Shown: positions 3,344-16,375 of the stretch, piece after piece
Layout: every line of letters begins with the position of its first letter
Position numbering within the stretch: the stretch's first letter is position 1
NCBI RefSeq assembly: GCF_000002985.6
Contig: NC_003283.11
Coordinates: 3,410,001-3,474,000, forward strand
DNA from: Caenorhabditis elegans
Taxonomy: Eukaryota; Nematoda; Chromadorea; Rhabditida; Rhabditidae
Reading direction: 5' to 3'
Length of the DNA stretch: 64,000 nt
The notes under the pieces: generated by a model
Database searches by the model: none
Seen by the model: only the letters and a program-made list of their open reading frames with translations
What the model was told of the DNA's origin: nothing
Translations under genes and position numbers: made by a program

Positions 3344-6300
3344 ATGCAATCACAAGACCCTGTTTATTCACAAAACGATCCACTATTGGTAGATAGTTCA
3401 AACAGGTATGCTCTTATTTTAAAGTCTTAAATGAGTCTCATGAGTTATCTAACAAAACCAACGAACATCTTTTGATTGATTATTACCCTTTGTTCAAGAA
3501 AAAACACCAAAAAATATTACGTGCAGAAATCTGTTAGCTTTTGAGAAAGCCTTTTAGAACTTCTAGAGAATTTTTCAGATCGAAAAAAAGAGATCACTGG
3601 AAGTCAATCGCTAAGATTGCTACAGTATTCATTGGAATCCTGTTCATAACATCGGAAGTTGTTGGCAAAAATAATGAAAACAAACACGGTAAGCATAGGG
3701 GTTTCTGTTGGAAAGTAGAGATAGTCGTGAGTTTATATTAGTTTTGCAAAATATGATAATACCCGAACTTGAAATTAAATCACGGACATATTATAAAAAA
3801 TGTTCCTGAAACCCAAACGAAACCTGCTTAAGTGTTTTTTTGATTCTTGTGATGCTGAAATAATTTTGATGAACTGTACAAAAGAACATCGTTGCCTCAA
3901 TTTCAGTTCCACTGTTGCATCGTACACACTTCAAAACACAGATAAAAATTATACAGTTGAGACCAAAACCGGGACAAAACTCTGTAAAATTCACGTATGA
4001 CATTATCAAGAACACATATTCACACGACAATGACGATGGCTCCCAGTTTAGGCCATTTGTTGCTTCTAATATTGAACGAGTCGTAGACAAGGAGAATAAT
4101 GAGACATACTTATATCCTGAATATCCTCTTGAGTTTGCACATGTACGTTTTTAATTGTTTCAACAAAAATTGTTAATGTTTAAATTTTAGATTCATTGGG
4201 TTTTTAATGTGGAGATTCCTGGAAAATCAGTAGAAAATATAATGGTCCAAGTTCCCGGAATGGAAAATATTACCCGTGATGAAGGAGAAGTATATGCAAA
4301 AACTTGTTTCAATCAATTGGATGTATGAAAAAAAAAACGGTGAAACTGTTTTAATTTATGTTTTTTAGTTTCTTCCAAATAAGACTGGCAATATTATTCC
4401 GATGAACAAAACCCTGGCATTGGATCATAATATTGATTATGTAACGATGAACGTAAGTATTTCCAATGTTTGTCAATATAACCATAAATTAATCTCAGAT
4501 TATAATACACAAACCTATTAAATTTTTGAAAACCAATGCAAAGGAAAGCAGTGGGGTAACGTTTTCAATCGAAGTTTACTGGAGTGAGTAATGTTGACAA
4601 ATTACAAACTATACTAGGTTACTTTGGTTTTTTAATATTAGGGTGGAGTAGCGGCAGTAGGGAAAATGTTAAAAAACCAATTCTTTGGTCCTAAAATGAC
4701 CAAAAATCATGATAAAACTTTTCAAAATATTTTTGAAAATTATTTATTTACTTTCAAAAAGTGGCAATTACTCAGTTTTTGTCACTCATAATTTTGGAAG
4801 TCGACCAAAAAAAATTTTGTTTGAATTATTTGTATTAAAACATTGTAGGGGTCGAAACATGAGATATTTCTTTAAATTTCTCAAAAGCTCGTATTTTTAG
4901 AAAATTTTGGCAATTTTCCAAAACTTTGACCGGAAATTATGAAAAATCTTTTTGGAAAATTTTTTGGAGTGTTTTATTATGATATTCGGTTGTTTCGAAT
5001 TATTATAAGTGCATTTAGACAAAATTCCCACTGGCGCTACTCCACCTTTAATGTGCCTTTTTCAGAAACAGTCAATTTTCCAACACCAGTATCTTCCAAT
5101 ACGACTACGTCTGAAAAGTTCTCTACATCTTCAAGATCGAACGATACGGGTGAGTGTTTGAAAATCTTAACAACAATTTACATTTTTGACTCTTTGACTT
5201 CTGACACCTCTCAATGAATGTATGTTCAGAACTACTTCGTCGTTCTGAAGAACTTAAAGAACAGAGCGAATATATTCAATTGCAACCAGAGTCAGGACAA
5301 AATCATGTCAAGTTCACTTACGACATTATCAACAACATTTATTCACATGATAACCAGGATGGGTCACCAGTTAACCCGAAACAAGTCTTTAACATTAAAC
5401 GAGTAGTAGACGAGGAAAACAATGAGGCATACATAGGTCAGGAAGCCCCTTATAGACGGTCAAATGTATGCTATAAACTTAAAAACCCATGTTTATGACT
5501 GATTTCCAGATCTACTGGATGTTCGATTTAAGGAACAAAGGAAGAAATGTTGAAAAAGTAGTGGTCAAAATGACCGGAATGGACGATATTACCCAACACC
5601 GAGCAGGAACTGTTGAATGCTGTTTAAACTATTTGATAGTCTGCAAATCTGACAAACTTACTCGATTCATTAAAAAAGTTTCAGAATTGCACTGGTATCC
5701 CGATTAATGAAAGTTTAACAATTGAGCAGAATGTTGGAAAATTATACATAGAGGTGAGCGAAAAAAAGTATTGCAGTCATAAATCAGTTTTAGATTGCAC
5801 TTCACAACCCCATTAAAGTATTAAAAACCAATGTCAAAGGTAGAAAAAGTGTGGAATCTTTTTCAATTGAAGTTTACTGGAGTGAGCCCTTTTTTCAATT
5901 ATATTATCTTACTGTGTCGCCAGAATGATTGTTTTGTATATTCAGAAGACGAACCATCTTACCCATTAACAACTACTACGGCAGTGACTGAAATGAATAC
6001 TAAACCGAAAACAATTGCTACATCTTCAACTTTGGAACTTCCAAGTGAGTGTCACCAAATTGGAGCATTGCGATAATTAATAAATACACTCAAAACTAAA
6101 AAAAACTCGTGGAAGAAACTCGTTTAAAAAAACCAGTGGAGTATACGCACAATTCCCAAAACTTAGGAGAAACAAATTTCCCACCTTTTTTGTACTTTCT
6201 CTGTGAATATACCAAAATCGGGAGCTCAATCAGTATCACGTGCCGACAGCTCACGGGCTCTGCGCTATACTTTATTTACCTCGTACCGTACTTGTTAAAA

Positions 6301-7726
6301 TTCTATAGAGTATTTTTAATTGAGCCTTAATTCTATTGTGTCCGGTGGAATGGAGTGACATTATACTCACAATCAGTCGGTTTTTGTAAGAGCATAATTT
6401 GATATTACACCTTTGAAGAAGAAGGAGGGAGCATAGACTTCAGAGCAATAATTCATATTGGGAGTCACATAAGTTTTGTAAGGGTGGGCGTAGGGACTTT
6501 GAGGAGTTGGCGGAGAATGTCTTAAGAATTTGTTTAGGCCTGAACATGGCTAGGCAACTAACTTTAATTATGTGGTGTTCAAACTTGAGCTTATAATCAG
6601 TAATTAGACCAAAGTTTCGAACAGTGGAGGATGGGGTAATGGGGACACCATAGACAAAATATGAATGGTTTTTTGTTGCGAGTGCCGAGTGCTAGTAAAC
6701 CCGACTTACTAGTTGGAAACCTTCTCACTTTAATTTTCAATTGGGGTCGACACTTTATTCATCCTGATCACTACAAGTGTTGCCTAAAGTTTGAGAGGGT
6801 CAACCCTTTTCCACCCATGTGCACCCCTATCTTTTATCAACTATCATTTTCAGAATTGCACTTTCAATACGATAACACAACAACAACTTTCACAGAAGAA
6901 GAAAAGCTGATCGATTTGAAGCCCACATCAGAAGCAAACTATGTGAAATTTTGGTACAATATTGTAAGGAACACGTATTCACAAACACACACAAATGGAT
7001 CTCCAGTTAAACCATATTTGGTTGCTAATATTGAAAGAACTATAGATACACGACTTGGCGAAGTATTTTTACATAAAAAAGAACGGAGTGAACATTGGGC
7101 ATCAGTGAGTTTTTCAATTCTGAAAGAAATTATATTAGGTTTTTCATTTTCAGATTGCATGGTTTTTCAATATAGATGTCAAGGGGAAATTAGTTGAAAA
7201 AATAATAATTCGTATGTCAGGAATTGAAGAGTTGATTCTTAATTCTGGGACAACTCAAATTGGCGAAAATTTAAATTTAATATCGGTATTTAAAAAGTAT
7301 GCAGACTGAGAAAATATGCTGATTTTTTAGAAATCTACCAGAATTCCAATAGAACAAAATTTGACGATTGACAATCCCCAATTAGAAGTTTTCTACATAA
7401 TGGTACATTTATTATCAAAATTATCGATATGTGCATTTTTTTATATGAAATTTTTAAGGCGCTCTGGACAATAAGTTTGGACGCGAGAGCTTTCAAAGCT
7501 GATCTGGAGGATGGGATAAACTCGGAAAGTTTTTCAGTCGAAGTGTTCTGGAGTAAGTCGGTTGGAACTTTTGTTGTGTTTAGGAATGAGTTGGGAAAAT
7601 ATGTATCTCTTACTTTTAACAATTTACAACCTCAAGTTTTTTTTTTTAATTTTTGATAAAATATAAGAAACTATGTTGTTTTCAGAATCGAAACAGGATC
7701 ACAATCAAACTACTATTTCAATCTGA
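3344..7726 (+). CDS. type II membrane protein with three tandem PAW-like domains (copy 1)
   Basis: Seventeen exons join in frame: 3344-3405, 3579-3688, 3907-4142, 4191-4322, 4369-4452, 4499-4583, 5066-5149, 5230-5465, 5510-5638, 5685-5753, 5794-5881, 5946-6044, 6854-7104, 7154-7285, 7331-7402, 7459-7552 and 7686-7726, giving 667 residues. A short cytoplasmic N-terminus (MQSQDPVYSQNDPLL) is followed by basic residues and a single membrane segment (IATVFIGILFITSEVVG), predicting type II topology. Three repeats of about 175 residues follow, each spread over four or five exons. Each has VKFTYDII or VKFWYNIV, then a W-F-N/D-V/L strand, and ends SIEVYW or SVEVFW. Thr/Ser-rich linkers separate them. 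The pattern resembles the PAW carbohydrate-binding sandwich of peptide:N-glycanases and worm proteins; this assignment is mine and unconfirmed. A 51-base exon present in copy 2 is missing, and intron 6 carries a transposon. The exon 16 acceptor ends AAG. An AATAAA lies near 7753. Confidence 0.75.
4641..5047. mobile_element. MITE with TIR GGTGGAGTAGCG, inserted in intron 6 of PAW copy 1
   Basis: The ends are inverted copies (GGGTGGAGTAGCGGCAGTAG at left; complement of CTGGCGCTACTCCACCT at right). The element is flanked by TTA at 4638-4640 and 5048-5050. The matching intron of PAW copy 2 (9572-9644) has one uninterrupted TTAATGTG at this place, so it preserves the empty site. There is no transposase. 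Related ends occur near 15260, 35896 and 48474. Confidence 0.85.
6045..6853. other. expanded intron 12 of PAW copy 1
   Basis: An 809-base intron where most introns of this gene are about 45-80 bases. It contains a fragment related to the palindrome in the same intron of copy 2 (GTGCCGACAGCTCACGGGCTC near 6240), plus non-coding sequence I cannot assign. The 3' end just before exon 13 is conserved between the two copies. Confidence 0.5.
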
Positions 7727-8262
7727 AGCTGAATTTATTTTAATTTTCCATTAATAAATATGAACCAATTTATTGTTTTGAGAATGAATGCACAGCTGCT
7801 ACAAGGTGCCGATAGTGTCTGAAACATAGAGACTTAGTCGAGTATTTGCTCATTTCATTGACTATCAACAAGGAAAGTGTGAAAATATTGTTCATCTTTG
7901 GTGGGAATATAGTCATTTGAATCTGCAACTATAAGCTCCAAAGCCACCACGCAGAACATTGTTAAAATCAAAGGGGCTTCAGCCTGAGTCCAACCGTAAA
8001 AATGCTTTGAAAGAGATAGGAAACGTTAAAGATCACACTGTTTTTGTAGCATTCGATCAGACATCTCGCTGATGAAATACTTTTTGAACTCTTCAGATTT
8101 GCACGACAACTTCCTTGTCTCATGCCACAATGATCCCTATTAATTGCCCGAAACTAGTTTCTTGTCATCTTGACCTTGGGTCACTACCGAATTGTTTTAA
8201 AACGAACTATATTCGTTTTTCAAACACTTTTGAGTAGTATATCTCTTGTGAAAGAAGAGAAA
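7727..8262. promoter_or_regulatory. intergenic between the PAW genes, with duplicated promoter
   Basis: Holds the 3' UTR of PAW copy 1 (poly(A) signal near 7753). The last roughly 220 bases are a near copy of the sequence in front of copy 1. The duplicated unit therefore starts upstream of the coding region. No gene is seen. Confidence 0.5.
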
Positions 8263-11200
8263 ATGCAATCACAAGACCCTGTTTATTCACAAAACGATCC
8301 ACTATTGGTAGACAATTCAATCATGTAAGTACTTTTTTAAAACTTTTGAGTTCCATGAGTTATCTAAAGAAACCTAGAAACAGCTTTTAATTGTTTTTCA
8401 ACCTCTGACCAAGAGAAAATCACTGAAAACTATTACGTGCAAGTCTCTAAGAGCGATTCTAAAGTGTCCCCATTAGAGAACTTCTAGAGAGTTTTTCAGA
8501 TCGAAAAAAAGAGATCATTGGAAGACAATCGCTAAGATAGCTACAGTATTCATTGGAATCTTGTTCATAACATCAGAAGTTGTTGGAAAAAATAATGAAA
8601 ACAAACACGGTAAGCACAGGTATTTCTGTTGAAAAGTAAAGTGAGTGGTGTTACAGATTCTCTTGCAAATCAAACATTAGGAGATAATGCAACAGAAGCT
8701 AATAGTCGTGAGTTTTATATTAGTTTTGCAAAATATGATAATACCCAAAATTAAAATTAAATCACGGACAGATCATAAAAAATGCTCCTGAGACCCAAAC
8801 GAAACATACTAAAGTGATTTTTTTATTCTTGTGATGCTGAAATAGTTTTGATGTTTTTGACTGTACAAAAAATATCGTTGCCTATAATCAATTTCAGTTC
8901 CACCGTTGCATCGTACATACTTCAAAACACAGATAAAAAGTATACTGTTGAGACCAAAACCGGGACAAAACTCTGTAAAGTTTACGTATGATATTATCAA
9001 GAACACTTATTCACACGATAATGACGATGGCTCCCAAGTTAGACCATATGTTGCTTCTAATATTGAACGAGTTGTAGACAAGGAAAATAATGAGACATAC
9101 TTACATCCCGAATATCCTCTTGAAATTGCACATGTACGTTTGTAGTTGTATTAACAAAGATTGTTGATGTTTAAATTCTAGATTCATTGGGTTTTTAATG
9201 TGGAGATTCCTGGAAAATCAGTGGAAAAAATATTGGTCCAAGTTCCCGGAATTGAACATAATGCAGATGATGAAGGAGAAATATATGCAAAAGTTAGTAT
9301 CAAACATTTAGATGTATGAAAAATAACGATAAAACTGTTTAATTTATGTTTTTTAGTTTGCCGTAAATAAAACTAGCAATAATATTCCGATGAACAAAAC
9401 CATGGCATTGGATCGTAATATTGATACTGTAACGATGAACGTAAGTATTTGCAATGCTTGTCAATATAACCATAAATTAATCTCAGATTATAATACACAA
9501 ACCTATTAAATTTTTGAAAACCAATTCAAAGGAAAGCAGTGGAGTAACGTTTTCAATCAAAGTTTACTGGAGTGAGTAATGTTGACAAATTACAAATTTT
9601 ACTAGATTACTTTGGTATTATTATATTAATGTGACTGTGTTCAGAAACCGGCAAATATCCAACTCCACCAGTATCTTCCAATACGACTACGTCTAAAAAG
9701 TTTTCTACATCTTCAAGATCAAACGATACTGGCAAGTTTCCCATTGATTCTGCAACTTAGCTTGTTCTTAGGCTCAGGCTTAGGTTTAAGCTTAATAGGA
9801 AACCGTCAGAAAGGTCCATTCGATAGCCCATGTCTTAAAACGGTCACTCAAAAATTTTCAGCTGCGAATCTCCACAATCAAGCTCACGGCGGGATCTCAA
9901 AGACTCTAAAATAGCACTGTAACAAAGCACTGTAATAAACTAAGAAACAATTTTCCTAATTCTCCTTGGTAGCTCATATCTCCGTGTATAAATTTTTTAC
10001 ATAAAAGTAATCAACTGATAAGTTGTTGATATTTTTGTAAAGAACAAGTTTGTAATTGGAAAATTTTATCGAAAACAATTTTGCTTCAGATAAAAACATT
10101 AGAATAGCAGTAGCAGCATTAAAATAGTAACAACAGTTGCCGCACTTCACACGCTTCTATCTGAAACAACAATTTTTTGATAAAAACTTTCAACTACAGA
10201 CTTGTTCTTTACAAAAGTATCAACAACTGATTAGTGGATAACTTTGCTGTAAAAAATTATCCGCTGAGATATGAGCTACCAAAGTGAATTTGGAAAATTG
10301 GCCCTTCAATGCTTGTGCTATTTTAGGATCTTTGAAAGCCCGCCGTGAGCTTGGTTGTGGAGTTTTGCCGCTAAAAATTCACGGGTAACCGTTTTAAAAT
10401 ATGGGCTATCGAATGGGATAGATCTCATATGCAAGTCCGATGGGCACCTTCTGACGGTTCCCTAGCTTAGGCCTCTGGCACTTCTCAAACGTTTTATTTT
10501 CAGAACTTCGTCGCTCTGAAGAACTTAAAGAACAGTACGGATATATTCAATTGCAACCAGAGTCAGGACAAAATTATGTCAAGTTCACTTACGACATTAT
10601 CAACAACATTTATTCGCACGATAATGAAGATGGATCACCAGTTAACCCGAAACAAGTCTTTAACATTAAACGAGTAGTAGACGAGGAAAACAATGAGGCA
10701 TACATAGGCCAGGAAGCCCTTTATAGACGGTCAAATGTATGCTATAAACTGAACAACGTTTGTTTATGACTGAATTCCAGATGTACTGGCAGTTCGATCT
10801 GAGGAACACAGGAAAAAATGTTGAAAAAGTGGTGGTCAAAATGACCGGAATGGACGAAATTACCCAATATGCAGGATCTGTTGAATGTTGTTTGAATTAT
10901 TTGATAGTCTGCAAATCTGACAAACTAACTTTATTCAATATTATTTTTTTCAGAATTGCACTGATATCCCGATAAATGAGAGTTTAACAATTGAGCAGTA
11001 TGTCGGAAAATTATACATAGAGGTGAGCATTTCCAGTATCTGCTAGTATTACAGTCATAAATCAGTTTTGTAGATTACACTTCACAGACCCATTAAAGTT
11101 TTAAAAACCGATGTCAAAGGTAGAAAAAGTGTGGAATCATTTTCAATTGAAGTATACTGGAGTGAGCCCTTTTTTCAACTATACTATCTTACTGTGTCGC

Positions 11201-12733
11201 CAGAATGATTGTTTTGTATATTCAGAAGACGAACCATCTTACCCATTAACAACAACTACGGCGGTGACTGAAATGAATACTACACCGAAAACAATTGCTA
11301 CATCGCCAACTTCTAAGGATCCAAGTGAGTGTCACAAAATTTAAACGTTCTGTGAAAAAATGTACACTCGAAACTTTAAAAAAATCTTCGTGGAGTATAC
11401 ACACAATTCTCAGAATTTAGAAAAAACTAATTTTCCACCATTTTTGGATTTTCTCTGGGAATCTGGCCCCCAGTAAATATCACATGCCGACCGCTCACGG
11501 GCTCCTTCGACGATCCGACCCATCCACAGCGAAGGTTAAATAGTGAGGTGTGGAACTCACCCGTGAGGTGTCGGCATGTGATATTGACTGGGGGCGATGT
11601 TCCTGTGTAGTAGGTCTGCTTAACCATCGAAATAACTAAATTTTGTGTCATTTTACCAATAGTAAATTTTTGGTGAAAAAATCAACAGTTTTGGTCAAAA
11701 TTGTACTGTCAAATTTTTGACGTGTGCGGCAAATTTCAAAATTTGCCGAGCTCGGCAAATTCGGCAAATCTACTTATTTGAAATTTGCCGCACACTCCTG
11801 GTACATACGAGGTAGACGTCTTGCTAACAAGATGCGTTATCAATTATTATTTTCAGAACTGCATCTTCAATATGATAACACAACAACAACTTTCACACAA
11901 GAAGATAAGCTTATCGAATTGAGGCCCACATCAGAAGCAAACTATGTGAAATTTTGGTACAATATTGTGAGAAACACGTATTCACAAACACACACAAATG
12001 GATCTCCAGTTAAACCATATTTGGTTGCTAATATTGAAAGAACTATAGATACACGACTTGGCGAAGTATTTTTACATAAAAAAGAACGGAGTGAACATTG
12101 GGCATCAGTGAGTTTTTCAATTCTGAAAGAAATTATATTAGGTTTTTCATTTTCAGATTGCATGGTTTTTCAATATAGATGTCAAGGGGAAATTAGTTGA
12201 AAAAATAATAATTCGTATGTCAGGAATTGAAGAGTTGATTCTTAATTCTGGGACAACTCAAATTGGCGAAAATTTAAATTTAATATCGGTATTTAAAAAG
12301 TATGCAGACTGAGAAAATATGCTGATTTTTTAGAAATCTACCAGAATTCCAATAGAACAAAATTTGACGATTGACAATCCCCAATTACAAGTGTTCTTCA
12401 TAATGGTACACTTTTTTATCAAAATTATCGATATGTGGATTTTTTAAATGAAATTTTTAAGCTACATTGGTCAACAGATGAGAATCAACAGATGGACGCG
12501 AGAGCTTTCAAAACTGATCTGGAGGATGGAATAAACTCGGAAAGCTTTTCAGTCGAAGTGTTCTGGAGTAAGTCGATTAGAACATTTGTTGTGATTAGGA
12601 ATAAGTTGGGAAAATATGTCTTTTAACATTTTACATACTCAAGTTGTTTTTTTTTGTTTATGATATACTATAAGAAACTATGTTTTTTTCAGAATCGAAA
12701 CAGGATCACAATCAGACTACTATTTCAATCTGA
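8263..12733 (+). CDS. type II membrane protein with three tandem PAW-like domains (copy 2)
   Basis: Paralog of the gene at 3344-7726, with 18 exons and 687 residues: 8263-8324, 8500-8609, 8657-8707, 8898-9133, 9182-9313, 9357-9440, 9487-9571, 9645-9731, 10504-10736, 10781-10906, 10954-11022, 11074-11161, 11226-11324, 11857-12107, 12157-12288, 12334-12405, 12462-12567 and 12693-12733. The cytoplasmic tail, membrane segment and three repeats are as in copy 1. The additional exon 3 encodes DSLANQTLGDNATEANS just after the membrane segment and contributes two N-glycosylation sequons (NQT, NAT). The intron after exon 8 uses a GC donor (GCAAGT at 9732), where copy 1 has GTGAGT, and carries a 0.67 kb inverted-repeat element. 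The third repeat is nearly identical to copy 1 including its introns, unlike the rest of the gene. An extracellular glycan-binding role is inferred from the PAW resemblance only. Confidence 0.75.
9796..10464. mobile_element. 0.67 kb inverted-repeat element in PAW copy 2 intron
   Basis: Long imperfect palindrome. The left arm has AACCGTCAGAAAGG, GATAGCCCATGTCTTAAAACG and CTCACGGCGGGATCTCAAAG; the right arm has the complements (TTTGAAAGCCCGCCGTGAG, CGTTTTAAAATATGGGCTATC, CCTTCTGACGGTTCC). It is absent from the matching 80-base intron of copy 1 (5150-5229). No transposase is present, so it is non-autonomous. Confidence 0.8.
11466..11595. repeat. palindromic repeat in PAW copy 2 intron
   Basis: The arms GCCCCCAGTAAATATCACAT and ATGTGATATTGACTGGGGGC are inverted around a centre near 11530, with CTCACGGG / CCCGTGAG next to them. 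A related fragment lies in the same intron of copy 1 near 6225-6260. It has no coding capacity. Confidence 0.7.
11721..11797. repeat. small palindrome of the TTTGCCG family
   Basis: The arms CGTGTGCGGCAAATTTCAAA and TTTGAAATTTGCCGCACAC are inverted around a core GCCGAGCTCGGC. Sequence of the same type (TTGCCGATTTGCCG ... CCACTCCTGG) is spread over 58926-59365. Confidence 0.7.
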
Positions 12734-12948: not shown

Positions 12949-14441
12949 TCACTGCCACGCCTTCTTAACATTCACAAAGTATATATTATGATTGGCATGC
13001 ACATGAGTTTCCAGAGACTTCACAACCGTCACCCTGTTCAATCGATCTCTTCTGAATAAAATTACAATGGAACCAACAGCATAAATTGGATAGCCAGCAT
13101 TCACTGAAATTCTTTTTGTAATACGCATTTAAAAAAAATCGTACTATAATTTTGTGAATACTGTTTTTCATTTTTTGTAAACCTTTGTAAGTTGAACCTT
13201 TTTTACTAAATCTAGTTTTAGAGTTTTAGTCATTTTAGAATCATTTAAAAAATCCTGAAAAATTAAATTTTCATACACTATAGGCTATAATTCTTAAGTT
13301 TGACTCAAGTTTGACAATATATTCGAAAAAATAGGGTTCGGACATTCCGAAATTTCGGAGCTTACATTTTTAGCAACTTACATTCTATCAAAGAAATATA
13401 GGTAGTTGTATCAATTTTCTGCCCAATATAAATGATGAATAGTAAAATAGTCATCTGGGCAGTGAGAAAAATTGATTGCAAGTTAGCGAAAACTTTTAAG
13501 GTTCTCGTAGATTTTAGATTTTGCTCTAGAGAGTATCGATTTGAAAGTGATGACGTTAATCGTTTCGATCGGAGCTTCTGAAAAAAAATTATTCTTTTTT
13601 TTTTAATATTTAAAAATAATTTTCAAGCTCACCTCGTTCTTCCGAAACATGTACTCGAATAATATTCTTCCAAAAATTTGAGTTGCAACTCCCAACGAGT
13701 GAATAACTTCAGTACTGCCAAAGACTCCAATTTTAAAAGAAATACAATAATCCATAAAAGGATCCGTGAATGAAAAAGTGGAGAATGAAACAGCTGTCGA
13801 GAAAAATCCTATTGAGAGCTGAAAGTCGATGATTTTTATATTTATTTCCTAGAGAACTTTTATCATACCTGCAATATCGCCATAAGTATACCTAATGTGC
13901 ATCCGGAATGCTCATAACTTTTTGATCTAACTGTGGCAATGTATCTTTCAATGACAAAAGGCACTGTTGTTGCGCTAACTAATCGAATTCCAAATAAATA
14001 CTGCGATCGGAACACAAAACATCGAATTGTGCTAGCAGCCATATCACAATAGTCAAATACTGCATAGTTATAGAGATCCAAGCCATGGAGAATTATTCTG
14101 AAATAAATAACTTCTTCGTTCGATTCGGTTTTGTTCTCAAGTGTAAATTTGAATTTAATTAAATTTTTCTATCAAAGTTTACAAATCTGTAACCAAAAAA
14201 TTCCTTCGGCGTACCTACTAAAAAAATGAATGAAAAATCCGAACAGATGAACTTGAAATATAATAGTCACATTTATATGAAATAGCCTTGCATTTCTCGA
14301 CTTCCACAACCAATAACTTGCTACAACAACTACCGGCAACGCAATTAAAGAACACAACAGTTCAAATATTAATGTCAGTTGGACCAAAAGTGATGTAGAT
14401 ATGATCTCCATCATTTGGCAATGCACTTGATAGGAAACCAT
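12949..14441 (-). CDS. serpentine chemoreceptor, probably class Srab (paralog A)
   Basis: Five exons on the - strand (14441-14215, 14097-13869, 13818-13633, 13577-13382, 13103-12949) give 330 residues. The same exon sizes (227, 229, 186, 196, 155) recur in the two + strand paralogs, which strongly supports the model. The protein starts MVSYQVHCQMMEIISTSL, has repeated hydrophobic membrane segments (for example LTLIFELLCSLIALPVVVVA), the ERYIATVRSKSYEH motif after the third segment, and ends VKKAWQ. The ERxxAT and YEH pattern belongs to the nematode Sra superfamily (Sra, Srab, Srb, Sre). Srab is my best guess because of the early Cys and the C-MM-I-TS start. Such proteins are candidate odorant GPCRs in sensory neuron cilia. 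A TTTCAG directly abuts the ATG, suggesting trans-splicing. It is oriented opposite to the other two copies. Confidence 0.8.
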
Positions 14442-16375
14442 CTGAAATCATGTTCATTGCCTAATCGGTGTCAGAACTAACTATATACATAGAAAATAAA
14501 ATCAACCGCCAAGTTTAGAAACGTTATTCTAATTGAAAAATAACAATAACTTAGAAATAATTGTGTTTTGAGCCATAGGTGGTCACAAAAAACAACACCA
14601 AAGGTGATCTAAACAACATTGGTGTGAGCGGGTATTATTCGGTAAGTAGCACCTTTTACGTATTTGATGAAAAATGTTTAGCTTCTAAAAATATCAAAGG
14701 AAATAAGTTCCGGATCAAAAATCATTACTTTTTCGTTGCAAATTGATTTTTTTCTGAAATAGTGAGAGTGTATGTTATCGATTTTGCTGAGTTCTCAGTA
14801 TTTAAAAAAGAAAAATTTTGGATTGAATTTTAAACGGAAAATAAAAATAATTATCATAATTTTTGTCTAAACCTGGGACTAAACACAATAGAAGTTTCAA
14901 CGGGTTTTTGAGTAGTTTGAAAAGGACACTGCCGGCAGAGCAGTACTTAAGTGGTGGGGGCAAGATATGTAGATGGCAATTACTAAAACTTCTCATAGTT
15001 GTCAAAATCGAATTTGTTGCAGTTGAAGTTTGAAATAGGATTACGGGTGCTTCATTTGCACCGGGAATGACCAGATTTTCTTTTCACCTTTTTTAAGTTT
15101 CAGCATTACATGAGGCTTAAATTTCCGAAAAGCTCAATATTTTCTTGAACGTCAAAATTTTGACAAACTTTATGAAAGTCTATAATAGATTTAGAGTGTT
15201 CATAAACGATGTTTGAACATAATTATTAGTCTATTGAGACTAAATTCCTACTAGCGCTACTTCACATTTAAGAATCTCGAAAAAAAAAATTGAAATAAAA
15301 TTTCAATTTCCAAGACTGCCAAGGTTGCCATTATATATCATGCCTCAAAGCCGAGAAAGCAGTTATTAGAACAAATTTTCAACTATCATTTTGAAAAAAT
15401 GTGCCTCAACTTGGGTCTGCAATCTTCCCGTTTTCCTTGTGATTTGAGAGAAATTGAACGAATTGATGTGATAGGATTTTTTTTTGGAAATATTACCGTT
15501 TCTGATGTAGACTCGCAAGATGTCGGCCGCTCAATCTGTTTTCATAGTTATGATTTAAATCGATTAAAGACATTACACGTTTTTGCATTTGTTTTTTGCT
15601 TGTTTCGAAAAACACTTTGTTTTTGATGTAGCCGACCCAAAAATAGACCCGCGTTACAACCCCTACGTCAAATACAATTTCCGGAAACTGCAAGTAAAAG
15701 AGAAAATTATTCAGTCTGTGGTTTTCAAGAAACTTGTTCAGACATCACAAATTATCACTAGATTTTGAAAAATATTTAAAATAGATGTTTCAATCTTTCT
15801 CATGTGGGTAATAATATGCTTACTCTCTGTTCATTTTAAGAACACTTTGACATTCTTGATGTATTTTACAGAGATATATGTTTTAGACTTTTTAATTTTT
15901 TTTGGATGTCACATAACATGTTCAACCAAAGCTACTACTTTTTTAACTGACAGCTCTTTTTATTCGTTTTATTTTCTTTGTATGCTGTTTATTTTGAATG
16001 AAATACTATAAGGCTGCCACCAAAAAATGTTCACTCTACAACATTGTGACTAGTTTGAATTTTGGTTTTGAGTTTTCAAAACGCTTCCGTCCGAAAAAAA
16101 GCCAAATTATTCCTTTCAATAATCGTCCGCCTGTGTTATCTATTGATCGATTTTTTCAAAGTAGATTAACGTAGCGGAAATAGGGTGGGCGCTAACATTT
16201 CCGACCGGCAACATTTGATATTGTTACATCTAACAATATTCTGATAATGAACATGATTTCAGATTAAAAATAGACTATATTCCCCTTTAGCTTTCACGTC
16301 CATTCATTTTTAAATATTACGATTTACCACTACAACAACAAAAATAAAGATAAAAGGTTTAAAAAGCGATTCCAG
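14442..16375. other. intergenic between divergent Srab-type genes
   Basis: About 1.9 kb acting as 5' flank for genes on both sides. No gene is supported. Around 15225-15500 is a block (CAAGACTGCCAAGGTTGCC, AATGTGCCTCAAC) repeated in degraded form at 17938-18170, 5' of the next receptor. At 15258 a fragment of the GGTGGAGTAGCG-type MITE is seen (ACTAGCGCTACTTCAC). Just before the receptor start is TACCACTACAACAACA near 16325, matched near 18940. Confidence 0.5.

Follow-up and report, generated by a model that had tools for sequence, protein, structure and literature searches.

A tandem pair of Caenorhabditis elegans genes for putative type II membrane proteins with three PAW-type modules

A stretch of 64,000 nucleotides of the Caenorhabditis elegans genome (G000:C5:3410001-3474000, here called the window) carries a tandem pair of paralogous genes on the + strand at window positions 3344-12733, with 17 exons each (splice sites placed by eye, phases checked). 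By profile comparison and intron positions their repeats are PAW-type modules, and genes 1 and 2 are probably working tandem members of a known worm PAW family; homology, exon structure, clustering and a ratio of nonsynonymous to synonymous substitution rates (dN/dS) below 1 are directly supported. As the best overall explanation, to which we assign a probability of about one half, each product would be a type II protein, anchored by a single signal-anchor helix, whose short N-terminus lies in the cytosol and whose arm, lumenal or extracellular, is composed of three PAW modules on Thr/Ser-rich linkers with N-glycosylation sequons. The modules and the C-terminal PAW of peptide:N-glycanase (PNGase) would descend from one ancestor, a four-exon cassette with phase-1 entry and three phase-0 introns, which would have been relocated outside the cytosol, made tandem, and spread via gene clusters with gain and loss of copies. 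Jointly, the three modules may recognize glycans or glycoproteins with avidity, their specificity having shifted from the mannose site of the enzyme.

Three papers (PMC9102325, PMC12248763, PMC8997433) expand PAW as 'PNGases and other worm proteins' and ascribe mannose binding to the PAW of the enzyme; in the first (PMC9102325), the C. elegans PNGase is described with one C-terminal PAW, and with a thioredoxin domain as well. Because the name in print covers 'other worm proteins', worm multi-PAW proteins are an already known kind; they are half of the PAW name, yet seem little studied. Within the accessible portions of the PAW-domain literature, W09G12.8, tabulated as 'Peptide N-glycanase/PAW domain' (PMC3651406), is the only worm gene besides that of PNGase named with PAW, and no study of worm PAW membrane proteins or of common introns appears there, which is not proof that none exists. 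The introns described below tie probable membrane proteins to the glycan-binding tail of the enzyme, and make testable the question of whether a cytosolic quality-control module became a surface recognition arm, and with which ligand.

Assignment of the window repeats to PAW

Both predicted proteins were searched against Pfam-A at E ≤ 10, where the profile PAW (PF04721) has a curated cut-off of 31.4 bits. In this profile search of the translated exons, named beforehand as a test of the original prediction of PAW-like domains, PAW was matched over the cut-off in both proteins, with 64.0 bits (E = 2.2e-17) for gene 1 and 58.5 bits (E = 1.1e-15) for gene 2. The two proteins thereby match PF04721 as members of that family do, in three stretches each. 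No other profile exceeded its cut-off; each protein had one further match below it (FimH_man-bind, E = 0.087; DUF7699, E = 0.03), and no transglutaminase-like catalytic core was matched in either. Set against the PAW domain as such, they differ in having three modules in series behind a hydrophobic N-terminus, with no enzyme domain found, and whereas PNG-1, the C. elegans PNGase, has a single C-terminal PAW on an enzyme, they have PAW alone over the Pfam cut-off.

A profile built from the six window repeats was run against the PDB and returned as its top three matches the mouse PNGase PAW chains 2i74, 2g9f and 2g9g (E = 6.7e-5 to 1e-4), with the next chain at 0.035. Using a 31-domain profile (PNG-1 included; see below), E-values for the mouse PAW chains went down to 1.7e-10. 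Taken singly, 25/31 domains (PNG-1 among the 31) match PAW at E ≤ 0.01. The PAW assignment is thus borne out by Pfam, by the mouse PAW matches and by the introns common with PNG-1. Two adjacent genes with three modules in series, as predicted, lie at exactly the coordinates given above, and the four landmark patterns proposed for the repeats recur, in relaxed form, in 6/6 window repeats.

A worm PAW family and its common introns

SMART describes C. elegans proteins with several PAW copies and no assigned function. Searches of the genome (100,286,401 bases, 7 contigs) at E ≤ 10 gave at least 79 exon-level matches with the gene 1 protein and at least 90 with repeat D2; both counts are lower bounds, the gene 1 search having scored 66 of 97 candidates. 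Among the matches listed, clusters lie at C5 3.26-3.42 Mb, C5 1.08-1.10 Mb and C1 11.62-11.65 Mb, and further family members lie on C1 at 13.24 Mb, on C4 at 1.23 Mb and, in the case of the PNG-1 PAW, on C1 at 11.39 Mb; none of those listed from either search falls in the window beyond 12572. The best Pfam PAW match of the genome, G000:C1:11387520-11388648, is what we take to be the PAW of PNG-1.

Family loci were modeled by profile splicing with a cost on intron length, without which exons of adjacent repeats became joined; local-aligner models with low scores or long introns were disregarded as noise. This gave 45 hits, 36 of which, PNG-1 included, span the model, although two of these (C5:3334552 and C1:13237745) are poor models. 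Together with the genome searches, these model-spanning domains support the multigene worm family that had been proposed. For the 31-domain alignment, 14 of the 45 were removed (seven poor or joined models, six hits that were partial and one that contains a stop), and the window repeats were entered as our own models; F15, Y17, Y24, S25 and W68 are invariant in 31/31 of the aligned domains.

A tree was calculated from 34 of the 36 rows, without the two poor models. It splits a five-row group with PNG-1 from the 29 remaining rows (support 100/100), and D1, D2 and D3 of gene 1 and gene 2 form three pairs, with 100% bootstrap each. The C4:1226737 domain, presumably that of W09G12.8 (equated by chromosome position only), groups with PNG-1 on a long branch (97/89), and the two share 50% identity across 150 columns. 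The window repeats are 23-32% identical to the PNG-1 PAW. W09G12.8 is, like the window pair, a worm PAW gene other than PNG-1, and one already annotated in a published table (PMC3651406).

Three further observations concern individual family loci. Matches at C1:11617109-11619906 (-) and C1:11623472-11626269 (+) have mirrored order and the same scores, which suggests an inverted duplication of a PAW gene. The PAW domain at C5:3392574-3393199 (L007 1495-2120) has an in-frame stop in its first exon and may be a pseudogene, or reflect a strain or assembly difference. At C5:3262571-3262812 (L079 1071-1312), two N-terminal exons form an apparent family remnant, with no over-threshold PAW within 3.5 kb and, by eye, last-exon-like bits after them.

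Intron columns were mapped on the 36-row alignment, which had been built blind to introns. Three internal introns recur, each in phase 0: at column 78 in 36/36 domains, at column 132 in 31/36 and at column 158 in 30/36 (PNG-1 included). The PNG-1 PAW has exactly these three internal introns and no other, with the junctions also read directly in the sequence. As the splicing profile was derived from the family, the models are not blind to intron places, but their junctions still follow DNA splice sites. An acceptor for the entry intron was found in 25 domains and not in the other 11; this intron is in phase 1 in 24 of the 25 (PNG-1 included, read directly) and in phase 0 in the remaining one. 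The PNG-1 PAW shares with the window repeats its phase-1 entry and its three introns in phase 0. One base past the last codon, GT is present in 28/36 rows and GTRAG in 23/36, so many worm repeats are phase 1-1 modules, the class that is tolerated by exon shuffling.

Assuming uniform placement, the naive chance of three introns matching three fixed places is 1e-6 to 5e-8. Since intron columns and phases agree with PNG-1, the worm repeats and the enzyme PAW would represent one inherited exon cassette, and it is this agreement that argues most strongly for it. The direction of the move would have been from the enzyme to the membrane proteins.

Topology, ligand and alternative explanations

In the gene 1 protein, the best hydrophobic segment is preceded by a Lys/Arg-rich stretch and spans residues 31-49, with a mean Kyte-Doolittle value of 2.0; past residue 60, the best value is 1.17. 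Outside the window, 9 loci have the two-exon N-terminus, 7 of them strong by score (one being the query's own) and 2 weak. Excluded were C5:1081381 (score 108), which is without exon 1 and requires a 2405-base intron, and matches scoring 62-81. Given these loci, the N-terminal segment is not peculiar to the window, as had been considered. N-glycosylation sequons number 13 in gene 1, one of which precedes the hydrophobic segment, and 12 in gene 2. From hydropathy, flanking charge and the recurring two-exon N-terminus, a type II membrane topology is plausible and would fit best.

Mouse PNGase PAW and PNG-1 have in common a block DWNM..YL.RK.G, of which PNG-1 has the letters D, W, N, M, R, K and G together, a combination found in 0/35 other domains. 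Two Cys columns are filled in 30/36 and 31/36 domains; within the window, only D2 has both. Differences from the PAW family at large are, for the window repeats, the incomplete block and the missing Cys pair of D1 and D3. We infer glycan recognition by the window repeats from the family, with a specificity that has likely shifted. Nothing here supports the glycan binding, recognition or defence of the original prediction, nor is defence excluded.

Several observations count against the three-module type II recognition arm. The complete DWNM..YL.RK.G block is present in 0/35 of the domains other than PNG-1, and its Trp in 1/35 (the C4 domain), but its Asn in 21/35 and its Tyr in 24/35; D1 and D3 of both genes are without the common Cys pair. 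For both profiles, the match to mouse PAW spans only about the first 80/160 positions. An AlphaFold model of a half-domain gave no structural match, a result treated as uninformative. Long branches in the tree, among them those of the C4 and C1:11647767 rows, drew a warning from the program. Finally, PIVFG stands within a longer hydrophobic run in 7/7 strong N-terminus loci and is absent from the window pair, with a net loss of 7 residues; with a hydrophobic stretch shortened in this way, the pair may have a cleaved signal peptide instead.

Against this background, four alternatives were weighed. The incompleteness of the mouse PNGase/PNG-1 block in 35/35 other domains, the identity of window repeats to the PNG-1 PAW of only 23-32% and the tandem clusters and diverged repeats would fit modules derived from PAW that have lost sugar binding and now serve as protein-protein recognition domains. 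The block may, however, not be the ligand site, and the five core positions stay invariant in 31/31 domains, so that we consider this a tenable but somewhat unlikely course of events. Secretion of the three-module protein after cleavage of the hydrophobic segment as a signal peptide is improbable: in the window pair the segment falls 7 residues short of its strong relatives and ends in Val-Val-Gly, which fits a cleavage site by the -3,-1 rule, but a signal anchor better suits both the n-region, which has 30 residues and several Lys/Arg, and the longer hydrophobic run of 7/7 strong relatives.

A type II layout also suits a lumenal lectin of the endoplasmic reticulum (ER), Golgi or endosomes, acting as cargo receptor or in glycoprotein quality control and not as cell-surface receptor. 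In its favor, the early secretory pathway is where high-mannose glycans are most abundant. The PAW of the enzyme is also said to bind mannose-rich glycans (PMC9102325, PMC12248763, PMC8997433). Neither translation has, by eye, a C-terminal retrieval signal or an extreme N-terminal arginine signal, and clustering with remnant copies would be unusual for a housekeeping receptor; we therefore regard an intracellular lectin as unlikely. Far less probable still is that the repeats are another beta-rich repeat and no homologues of PAW. For it speak D2 of gene 1, which on its own reached 26.0 bits and stayed under the 31.4 cut-off, the 6/31 single domains that do not reach E ≤ 0.01 for PAW, and a phmmer search of a single D2 repeat against the PDB, which gave no PAW chain and only PKC theta (E = 0.57). 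The whole-protein scores over the cut-off, the mouse PAW matches and the intron positions in common with PNG-1 contradict it, and the Pfam scores, the six-repeat profile and the common introns already nearly refute it.

The best reading is a diversified lumenal or surface recognition family, whose topology and ligand we infer. A bolder version, which we regard as doubtful, is that a PNGase-type PAW cassette moved outside the cell by phase-1 exon shuffling and gave rise to clustered, gene-converting surface lectins with pockets diversified from mannose, a nematode pattern-recognition family.

Gene structures, divergence and surrounding sequence

Gene 1 (3344-7726, +) was drawn from splice sites and phases and is predicted to encode 667 residues, comprising the putative anchor and three PAW-type repeats. 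Exons 1-2 (3344-3405, 3579-3688; span 3344-3688) encode the N-terminus with the hydrophobic segment. They are followed by repeat D1 at 3907-4583 (exons 3-6: 3907-4142, 4191-4322, 4369-4452, 4499-4583), in which all internal introns are in phase 0, and by the Thr/Ser-rich linker exon 7 (5066-5149, phase 1-1). Repeat D2 at 5230-5881 (exons 8-11: 5230-5465, 5510-5638, 5685-5753, 5794-5881) retains the common Cys pair and is separated by a second Thr/Ser-rich linker, exon 12 (5946-6044, phase 1-1), from repeat D3 at 6854-7552 (exons 13-16: 6854-7104, 7154-7285, 7331-7402, 7459-7552). The final exon (7686-7726) contributes a short C-terminal tail and the stop.

Gene 2 (8263-12733, +), read from splice sites and likewise of 17 exons, is predicted to encode 670 residues. 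Its N-terminus and hydrophobic segment are encoded by exons 1-2 (8263-8324, 8500-8609; span 8263-8609), followed by D1 at 8898-9571 (exons 3-6: 8898-9133, 9182-9313, 9357-9440, 9487-9571), linker exon 7 (9645-9731) with a GC donor to intron 7, D2 at 10504-11161 (exons 8-11: 10504-10736, 10781-10906, 10954-11022, 11074-11161), the Thr/Ser-rich linker exon 12 (11226-11324, phase 1-1), D3 at 11857-12567 (exons 13-16: 11857-12107, 12157-12288, 12334-12405, 12462-12567) and a final exon with a short C-terminal tail and stop (12693-12733). The spliced aligner queried with the gene 1 protein reproduced these exons, a support that is not fully independent, because the query had been drawn by eye. In both genes, the least certain boundary is where exon 16 begins; in gene 2, profile splicing chose a later acceptor (77 nt intron) than the by-eye model and the spliced aligner. 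Between exons 2 and 3 of gene 2, window 8620-8720 could hold a small extra exon, whose counterpart in gene 1 seems, by eye, shortened.

Over 665 codons, dS between the genes is 0.175 and dN 0.057, with dN/dS of 0.32 overall and 0.16 to 0.49 by part, in keeping with two working copies. Across the tract 7013-7411 of gene 1, identity to gene 2 is 98-100%, in the introns as well, versus 89-91% in the adjoining bins, so that recent gene conversion is likely. The alignment with gene 2 is poor in introns 6 and 12 of gene 1, and inverted repeats are present in intron 6 of gene 1 and introns 7 and 12 of gene 2, for which insertions after the duplication would be the simplest reading. The arms in gene 2 introns 7 and 12 (9732-10503, 11325-11856) measure 102, 85, 50 and 44 nt, are 84-86% complementary and resemble transposon insertions. 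In gene 1 intron 12, an 83-residue open frame at window 6443-6691 (-) resembles, by eye, a reverse-transcriptase fragment from an element lacking long terminal repeats (non-LTR), with no Pfam match at E ≤ 0.01.

The upstream neighbor (506-2716, +) encodes an arrestin-domain protein (Arrestin_N 57.5 and Arrestin_C 99.8 bits, two open frames), and the downstream neighbor (13866-14447, -) is an srab-type chemoreceptor gene (7TM_GPCR_Srab 118.6 and 77.6 bits, two open frames).

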